A stretch of 64,000 bases of DNA from Mytilisepta virgata (Eukaryota > Mollusca > Bivalvia > Mytilida > Mytilidae). Numbering within the stretch: the stretch's first letter is position 1; every line of letters begins with the position of its first letter. Positions 51,101 through 59,649 of this stretch are shown here, piece after piece. The notes beneath the pieces were generated by a model. It worked only from the letters and a program-made list of their open reading frames with translations. It was not told the origin of the DNA and ran no database searches. The DNA lies in assembly GCA_028015205.1 (NCBI GenBank), contig CM051521.1:98618513-98682512 (forward strand), written 5' to 3'. A program made the translations under genes and the position numbers.

Positions 51101-54100
51101 AGTCTGGTTCCAATTGGTCAAGTGGTTTAAGACAAGAAGATTTTTCAATGAATTTTCCCATAGGGCCCTATGTTAAACTAAGTTCGGCTATGGCGGCCAT
51201 CTTGGTTAACAGTCTGGATCATTGGACATATTTCTGAAAGACAACCTCCTAAGAACCATTACTGCCAACTTTGGTTCCAACTGGCCTTGTAGTTTCATAT
51301 AAGAAGATTTTTGAAAATCACCACCCCCCCCCTTTTTTTCTATTTTTAGTAACAGCAGCCATGTTGGTTGGAAGTTGGGGATGCCATGGTCTCAATTGGC
51401 ACAGTGGTTTGACAGGAAAAGATCTTTAAAGGAAAGTTTACGCTGGATGCCGTCTTTAAAGGGCAAATATCCTATAAGGGGTCAATCAATGATTTTGGTC
51501 AAGTTGACTTATTTGTAGATCTTACTTTGTTGAACATTTTTGTTGTTTACAATTTGTCTTTATCTATAATAATATTCAAGATAATAACCTAAAACTGCAA
51601 AATTTCCTTAAAATTAACAATTCAGGGGCAATAACCCAACAAAGGGTTGACCGATTCGTCTGAAAATTTCATCACAGGTAGATCTTGATCTGATGAACAT
51701 CTTTCAGGTCAGGTGAGCTAAAAATATTTACTAAATATAATTGATGTAATTATAATTATGTAAAGAAATTAATTCGATAAAATAAAGAATTAAAACAATT
51801 GTAATGCAATTCTGAATTTCACCACATCGGGAAAGAATTCAAAAACATTTTATAACCTCTCACAGGTAACGCTGAATATTTACATTTGAATTAAATTATA
51901 GGAACAACATACCCTTACGTGATACTTGAAGGTAAATGACCCCCCTTGTGAAATTATGATTAAAGTTGTTTATTGACACTAATTAACACCATGACTGAGA
52001 AATTTAAGTAGATTTTAAACGATATGCCATTTTCAATGGAAATATAATAAGAAGAAAATAATGATGTTATAAAACCATCTCAGTATTTGATTTTTGGGAT
52101 TGTTCACAGTATTGAAATAATTTTTTTAAGTGTGATAAATGTGGCACGCCTGAACCACTTTTATAGATATCCTAGTTTATCTCAAATAAAATAGGATTTT
52201 CTCAGATAAACTAGGATTATCTCACTATTTTGCATTAAGCTCAGATAAACCGGGATTATCTTGGAAATTTTAAACCAGGATTTTCTCTGCTTAATGCATA
52301 TTTGAGATAATTCAGGATATTTCTCAAAATATTAGATAAATAACTAGAGGTGTTGTCACAGGAGTCCAGCATGCTGGACTGTTTTAGCACGCTAAAACTG
52401 ATGTCTCCCCTTCCATACCCATAGTTTTTTAAACATTTTTTAGGGATCATCAAGGTGGCAAATTAAGAGCTATGGTACATAATACATGTAGTTACCTACA
52501 GATATGTGCTTCAACAAGGAATGAATAAGGTAATATTTAGTTTTGGGGAAGGGATCTGAACCATTTTTAAGATAAATTAAGGTTTCTGGTCTTGAGGGGT
52601 AGGGGATGACCCCCGGGGCTCAGATGTATACTGCATTCAACTTGTCTTGTTATCATGAATAATAAAATATATGGTTTAAGGGTGGGGATTTCAACCCTTT
52701 CCAAGATAATGTAGGCTAGGGGGTGGGGACTGACCCCCAGGGACCCAAATGTGGTACTCTGCACTCCGCCTTGACCTGATGCATATACCTTCCAAATATC
52801 ATGAGGCTAGCTCAAGAAACAAAAAAGTTATGTTCCGGACAAAAAATTTGATTAGAAGAGGAAGAAGAACACTATTGGGTTGGGATCTCAATGGTTTTCA
52901 GAATATTTAGTATTTTATCATTTGAGGGGGTGGGGCATGACCCCCCTCAGACCCCCCTATGGTACCAAATGATTTGTCTTATCATAAGGAGTAATAATAT
53001 ATATGGTTATAGGGTGGGGATCACAATGGTTTTCAAAATATTAAGTATTTTGTTATTTTAGCCTACATTTTACAGGCTAGGGGGTGGGGACTGACCCCCA
53101 GGGACCCAAATGTGGTACTCTGCACTCCGCCATGACCTGATGCATATACCTTCCAAATATCATGAGGCTAGCTCAAGAAACAAAAAAGTTATGTTCCGGA
53201 CAAAAAATTTGATTAGAAGAGGAAGAAGAACTAGAATTGCAATTGCGAGCAATAGCAGATGTCGCCCCTGGCAGCCATCTTGAAAATGGCGGCCATTTCG
53301 AAAAAAAAAGTATTGATTGCACACCTTCACATAGTGATCTTACTTTCTGCCAAGTTTCATTCAATTCTATCCAGGCATCTCCGAGAACTAAGCCGGACAA
53401 AAATCATTGGAAAGAAAGAATAATAACTAGAATTGCAATTGCGAGCAATAGCAGATGTCGCCCCTGGCAGCCATCTTGAAAATGGCGGCCATTTTGAAAA
53501 AAAAAGTACTGATTGCACACCTTCACATAGTGATCTTACTTTCTGCCAAGTTTCATTCAATTGTATCGATGTTAAGTTTTTCGCCATTTTAACATCATTT
53601 TTCAAAATGGCCGCCAAACGTCTCCAACCGATCGCCATTTTTTTTCATCAGTTTGTTCTTCTAATTGTACTTTACAAACCTACGAAGTTTAATGAAATTC
53701 TATGGTACAGTTTTTGAGATATAAACGTTTTAAATTTTCGGAGGGTACCGATCTTTGAATGGCGGCCATCTTGAAAATGGCGGCCATTTTGAAAAAAAAA
53801 GTATTGATTGCACACCTTCACATAGTGATCTTACTTTCTGCCAAGTTTCATTCAATTCTATCCAGGCATCTCCGAGAACTAAGCCGGACAAAAATCATTG
53901 GAAAGAAAGAAAGAAAGAATAATAATAATAATAATAATAACAAAGAAACGGAAGAATAACAATATGTCGTCCCGTGACTACGTTCGGGGCGACATAATAA
54001 CTAGGTATGATTGTGATCGCAAGCGAGTCACAAGATGTCTCCCAAACCCCCATTGCCACTATCTAGAGCTTATCAGTAACCCCCTAAATTCCCTTTTGCT

Positions 54101-59649: not shown

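Follow-up and report, generated by a model that had tools for sequence, protein, structure and literature searches.

Introduction

Helitron2 transposons are described as having an asymmetric inverted repeat, one copy of which forms part of a 5' hairpin while the other lies upstream of a 3' stem-loop (PMC3627910). HINEs, non-autonomous elements of the same layout, have TT flanks and cause no duplication (PMC4067079). Self-insertion that yields multiple termini, either 5' or 3', has been described for FoHeli in Fusarium oxysporum, where one nested pair was observed (PMC5148889), and for maize Helitrons, where a nested intermediate was proposed (PMC3288121). A fly survey found 11 of 322 repeats to be nested (PMC3630058). 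Statements on these and other published systems refer to the accessible portions of the cited sources. Here we describe a nested block at positions 52344-58777 of a 64,000-nucleotide stretch of the genome of the bivalve Mytilisepta virgata (analysed as G000:C14:98618513-98682512), hereafter the window; the assembly is 1.03 Gb in 109 contigs. The block is built of short elements of three families, A, B and C, and a fourth family, D, occurs at other loci. The elements are very likely non-autonomous Helitron2/Helentron-type rolling-circle transposons (HINEs) that insert recursively into a (TTA)n tract of their own.

The elements resemble those of the HINE/DINE-1 group, which are short and non-coding, with palindromes, a microsatellite and TT flanks without duplication, and whose subterminal inverted repeats begin 2-4 bp from one terminus and 38-60 bp from the opposite one (PMC4067079). 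However, their stressed palindrome is at the 3' end, whereas the strongest hairpin is 5' here, as in Helitron2, and the accessible part of that description does not include recursive nesting (PMC4067079). One Helitron2 family also inserts after T-runs, but A, B and C terminate in CTAG, which has the CTRR form ascribed in the same source to Helitron1; the 3' copy of the asymmetric terminal inverted repeat of B is 57 bp away here, and a self-landing tract is not reported in the portion of that source available (PMC3627910). The Cg_HINE elements of the Pacific oyster share the microsatellite, the central tandem repeats and the TT preference, whereas nesting is not described for them in the text at hand (PMC7492417). 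MuTAnT, Micron and TAFT also insert into simple repeats, but a target repeat borne by the element is not reported in the accessible part of PMC4486113, whose reference list contains a title on Helitron-like elements in lepidopteran (GAAA)n repeats. Recursive insertion into an element's own 5' landing tract was not met in a literature search that was thin on subscription journals. Nested, multi-ended and microsatellite-targeting Helitrons have already been published; as far as these searches show, the systematic recursion into the element's own 5' landing tract is new.

Results

Composition of the nested block

A pattern script applied to 52344-58777 found eight A, three C and one B pair of ends. 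All 24 ends were located by pattern search with no mismatch to their own pattern, on a single strand, and last-in-first-out pairing gave no type mismatches and a depth of five levels. The features, in window coordinates, are as follows.

52344..58777, minus strand: B, the outermost element, a HINE that has central repeats and is interrupted by the entire A/C nest (pattern and parse)
53231..58729, minus strand: A1, a short A that holds A2, C1, A3 and A4 and sits in the B tract (GAAGAA|TAATAATCAC)
53427..53997, minus strand: A2, a long A of 568 bp, unsplit
54001..54720, minus strand: C1, unsplit (pattern and parse)
54724..54978, minus strand: A3, an intact short A
54911..54921, minus strand: (TTA)n landing tract of intact A3, 56 bp from the A3 5' end
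54979..58669, minus strand: A4, a short A that holds A5 and A7 (parse)
55175..56324, minus strand: A5, a long A that holds A6 (parse)
55691..56261, minus strand: A6, a long A, unsplit, innermost at level 5 (parse)
56328..58606, minus strand: A7, a short A that holds A8, C2 and C3 (parse)
56523..57100, minus strand: A8, a long A, unsplit, at level 5 as well (parse)
57101..57829, minus strand: C2, unsplit (parse)
57830..58546, minus strand: C3, unsplit (parse)
58515..58775, minus strand: stack of five 5' hairpin ends, belonging to C3, A7, A4, A1 and B (pattern search)

The pattern search places the A heads at 53231, 53427, 54724, 54979, 55175, 55691, 56328 and 56523. Counted to the last base before TAA, the A hairpin ends close at 53994, 54975, 56258, 56321, 57097, 58603, 58666 and 58726; on the same count the head and hairpin-end pairs are 54001/54717, 57101/57826 and 57830/58543 in C and 52344/58774 in B. 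The 3' end CTAG of B is at 52344 and its 5' hairpin end occupies 58749-58775. The deepest chains are B > A1 > A4 > A5 > A6 and B > A1 > A4 > A7 > A8. The balanced A/C/B nest of five levels that a first-pass annotation had read from these letters is thereby confirmed. Its reading of the hairpin array at 58515-58775 as a pile of host ends is supported as well; the three A ends in this stack are spaced 63 and 60 bp apart.

The continuity check that the same annotation had suggested was run by excising each inner element (CTAG...GACA) together with one TAA. A1, A4, A5, A7 and B each rejoin at their own (TAA)n tract, the rejoined tract reading GAA(TAA)nCAAAGAAACGG in the A hosts and GAAGAA|TAATAATCAC in the B host. 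Rejoined A1 is 259 bp long and unbroken across the tract, and rejoined A7 is identical to intact A3 at 252 of 252 positions. A3 has at least 44 other full-length copies of 100% identity on nine contigs (40 of 823 candidates scored). The central repeats of B are about 135 bp long, and among its 862 genome candidates, of which 40 were scored, the long matches are 97-99% identical.

Junctions and insertion sites

Balance by itself was rejected as proof, since a single family balances in about one case in nine (21,994 balanced orders when the 16 A ends were shuffled 200,000 times). When all three families were shuffled, 15 of 300,000 arrangements balanced. The junctions are stronger evidence than the balance. 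Their census covers the window and 20 other loci, chosen for an identical A3 copy, which have the same architecture and together contain 384 ends. Every A-body microsatellite (161/161) is followed by the element's own tail (81), the CTAG end of an element (75) or a D-family end (5), and 146 of 148 A tail tracts are preceded by their own body (82) or by the GACA end of another element (64). Of the hosts, 49 contain inner elements (44 A, 4 C and 1 B), and every one of them is split within the tract or at its edge; two of these hosts, at L014 and L017, have an untracked D element as an extra child. Across the window and the 20 loci, left and right breakpoints nearly always fall at the identical site.

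The minus strand of intact A3 has 39 TT steps. Use of the tract exceeds what TT alone predicts, because only 4 of these steps lie inside it. The parse, the host splits and the junctions support the annotation's proposal that small elements inserted repeatedly into one another, in the tract beside the host hairpin end, and some of these insertions may be non-independent events.

Polarity and terminal anatomy

On the minus strand, the 5' end in all families begins (TT)ATGTC... within a hairpin (TT|ATGTCNCC). Toward the 3' end lie the complement of the element's start and then a weaker stem-loop, followed in A, B and C by CTAG. In families A-D the inverted repeat measures 8-13 bp and co-varies between them (ATGTCGCCCC, ATGTCTCCCCTTC, ATGTCTCCCAAAC and ATGTCCCC). 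Its 5' copy lies directly behind the flanking TT(A) in all four families, and its 3' copy is 28, 57, 34 and 28 bp from the 3' end in A, B, C and D, respectively. Folding was computed for A, B and C, and the 5' hairpins fold better than shuffled sequences (z = -2.96, -4.91 and -5.37, respectively).

In this layout, which is that of Helitron2/Helentron elements and of the non-autonomous HINEs, the hairpin marks the 5' end and CTAG lies at the 3' end. Comparison with the published Helitron2 definition thus reverses the polarity of the first-pass annotation, which had called the hairpin 3' and CTAG 5'. With its labels swapped, new copies enter A behind the host 5' end, at a distance of about 56 bp.

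Target rule and orientation

On the minus strand, all 207 of the 3' ends of A, C and D are followed by TT, and TTA precedes 194 of 195 5' ends of A-D, the lone exception being a 30-bp end duplication at L016. B has TT on both sides and lies in AT-rich DNA also outside TAA tracts. The A-in-B junctions GAAGAA|TAATAATCAC and GAAGAATAA|TAATCAC come from different loci and give the same empty site. A 3-bp TAA target duplication is ruled out by the GAAGAA|CTAG junctions.

None of 408 ends in the window and the 20 other loci is on the opposite strand. This co-orientation is explained by the tract, because (TTA)n has TT on one strand only. The TT rule together with a (TTA)n tract borne by the element accounts for the position of insertion, the 3-bp spacing and the co-orientation.

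Other loci

Nested-type exact junctions, in which the GACA end of an element abuts an A tail, number 1,993 genome-wide, and the reversed-pattern control gave none. The architecture is a property of the elements themselves, and the idea of a single trap locus in the first-pass annotation has to be given up. Among the matches listed (the first 100 of 1,993), eight nested junctions follow one another at C2:23718062-23718532. The nested junctions of C2:23717683-23771457, a stretch of 54 kb, are all on one strand among the matches listed.

Nesting in Fusarium and maize appears occasional in the accessible accounts, whereas here another element splits 80 of the 161 A bodies found in the sampled loci and L027 has seven closed A levels. 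The deepest closed chain of L027 is 3811 > 4006 > 4742 > 6046 > 6245 > 6725 > 7205, all inside a B whose far end is beyond the stretch; this array is short one tail, which may have shifted the pairing by one. The first A lies in a B tract at 10 loci (L009, L012, L015-L018, L021, L023, L026 and L027), and the L024 array begins in a plain (TAA)n repeat. The D family nests in itself (L014 1958-3886, L021 4038-8001 and L026 4400-6438).

At L021 4038-8001, four D heads occur consecutively, in a series truncated where the sequence of that locus stops. At L011 2896-3795 and L026 4011-4396 (minus strand), the 3' half of a C is joined to the 5' half of an A at the TAA tract. These C/A chimeras are products of exchange at the tract, by way of transposition or recombination.

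How often arrays balance

Eleven arrays are fully in view, the B head of L023 being taken from a parse that allowed indels. Seven of them balance: the window, L012, L015, L022, L023, L024 and L025. L023 and L024 consist of a single A each, and without them the count is 5 of 9. The perfect balance of the earlier annotation therefore stands for the window and fails as a rule; the window is a clean case.

At L017 4246-4483, the B end is preceded by a stack of four A 5' ends where only two A heads are open, which leaves two in surplus. For surplus or missing 5' ends in general, slippage in the stack and transposition of multi-headed copies would both fit.

Discussion

Proposed mechanism and candidate enzyme

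Under the proposed mechanism, a Helentron-encoded enzyme supplied from elsewhere in the genome would insert a copy between two T's, without detectable target duplication. A short (TTA)n tract lies close to the 5' end of every element (in A, 56 bp inside it), and the 5' end itself also borders TTA; both present T^T on one strand only. A copy that landed inside a host, just behind the 5' hairpin, would be nested in the same orientation, and one that landed right at the host 5' end would become a head-to-tail neighbour, again in the same orientation. Each new copy would supply a fresh tract, and repetition would give recursive, co-oriented arrays with their 5' ends stacked on one side. Single ends would later be gained or lost, probably through slippage in the stack.

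Candidate enzymes are numerous. The Helitron Rep domain has 317 candidates in the genome; all 150 that were scored exceed the cut-off, with open frames of up to 2,892 aa. The Rep motif in the best 30 of these 150 is RGSPHxH in 23 and RG(L/Q)PHAH in 7, and RGSPHxH is the Helentron form of Rep (PMC4067079). Helitron1-type Rep (L029-L034 and L038) and Helentron-type Rep (L035-L037 and L039-L058) coexist, with long open frames. Within flanks of about 1.5 kb, none of the 30 best Rep loci has heads or tails that match the search patterns. In the window no open frame exceeds 179 aa, the longest lying within the array; the two longest in the array loci L001-L028 are 710 and 541 aa.

A number of observations weigh against this interpretation or narrow it. 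Two of the 148 A tails have some other neighbour, and the C/A chimeras of L011 and L026 count on this side as well. A 2-bp AA duplication is indistinguishable from zero duplication, family D is without the CTAG end, and the 3' stem-loops are weak relative to shuffled sequences (z = -0.56, -1.95 and -1.87 in A, B and C). Four of the 11 fully visible arrays are unbalanced: L009 has 12 A heads and 11 tails, L027 has 15 and 14, L017 has 7 A heads and 9 tails with one D head and two D tails, and L018 has one C head and two C tails. L016, cut on one side, is short one A tail and has one C tail in surplus. The choice of loci by an identical A3 copy is skewed to young arrays, so the frequencies are not genome averages. 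The tie between the elements and the autonomous Helentrons is one of structure only.

Alternative explanations

Segmental duplication, unequal crossing-over or slippage might have truncated heads and multiplied tails as a 60-63 bp tandem repeat, the balance being a matter of luck. The tails do make a tandem array, the missing or extra tails at L009, L016, L017, L018 and L027 resemble slippage, and A2 and A6 are identical at 568 of 568 positions while none of the 20 other loci contains an exact match to the 469-bp A2 body, which suggests a local copy. However, A2 and A6 share precisely the element and their flanks are unlike, left and right breakpoints coincide as described, and duplications ending at varied depths would upset the balance, yet 7 of 11 arrays (5 of 9 without the single-A arrays) retain it. 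We regard this origin of the nest as improbable; as a secondary process acting on the stacks, slippage very probably occurs. It is also unlikely, though worth retaining, that tandem neighbours such as C2-C3 are rolling-circle concatemers inserted at once, so that only the nested copies are separate events. Adjoining C copies at L025 are equal in length (351,351 / 348 x4 / 347,347), the short copies differ from one another by 0-4 mismatches, and tandem Helitron arrays and closed circles have been published (PMC5876387, in the part available). Against this, the spacers between neighbours differ by whole TAA units and the families alternate (A-C-A-A in the window), unlike one concatemer, and concatemer insertion leaves the nesting unexplained.

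Hairpins near both ends, a fixed flanking dinucleotide and the lack of an evident duplication also recall other single-strand transposons, for example an IS200/IS605-like class, in which each end forms a hairpin and the flanking target is fixed. We give this little credence: an asymmetric inverted repeat whose copies lie in the 5' hairpin and upstream of the 3' stem-loop is the hallmark of Helitron2 (PMC3627910), and Helentron-type Rep genes are plentiful in the genome, although a TnpA-type gene was not searched for. That repeats were collapsed or mis-joined in assembly is very improbable. Copies of up to 100% identity are a known assembly hazard, but array compositions vary on several contigs while strand is uniform and the junctions follow one grammar, in an assembly with so few contigs for its size. 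Two further classes were rejected. A canonical Helitron1 has a 5' TC end without a hairpin and inserts at A/T, whereas the 5' end here reads (TT)ATGTC and forms part of a hairpin, with TT as the target; the CTAG 3' end is the sole feature that agrees. Miniature inverted-repeat transposable elements and other cut-and-paste elements have terminal inverted repeats and a fixed target duplication, whereas the ends here are asymmetric and the 3-bp duplication is excluded.

Implications

If the elements are HINEs that land in their own tract, a TT rule plus a carried simple repeat yields a legible record of transposition, in which nesting would give the relative order of insertion and the junctions are nearly all exact. 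The arrays would offer a natural test of Helentron site choice and of whether nests spawn multi-ended or chimeric elements, the question raised for maize and Fusarium. They also carry a warning, in that stacked hairpins may pass for satellites and the polarity of an element is easily inverted by eye.

More tentatively, the (TTA)n tract could be a landing pad kept by selection, which would attract new copies into older ones as a safe haven of their own making, and the arrays could be assembly lines that mobilise chimeric, multi-headed elements; this is possible, and we think it rather less likely than its converse. Each stacked 5' end could then start rolling-circle replication, which the first 3' end would stop. 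The C/A chimeras of L011 and L026 and the surplus 5' ends without 3' ends in L016, L017 and L018 bear on this idea.

Other features of the window

Scans of the window against Rfam and for tRNAs gave no matches, and neither did viral contigs when searched for the A head and a generic tail. At 32549-32959 and 20961-21350, probable host gene exons match DUF7802 and DUF2046, respectively (Pfam; three frames compared). At 580-6856, tandem repeats are surrounded by long inverted repeats that reach 98% complementarity, perhaps as a large foldback element; the pairs are 580-945 with 6491-6856, 1025-1602 with 5137-5714 (91%) and 1379-2107 with 2224-2952. Tandem repeats of about 165-167 bp occupy 3035-5035, 12984-13846 and 50883-51312, a period that we take to be near that of the bivalve BIV160/Cg170-type repeats.
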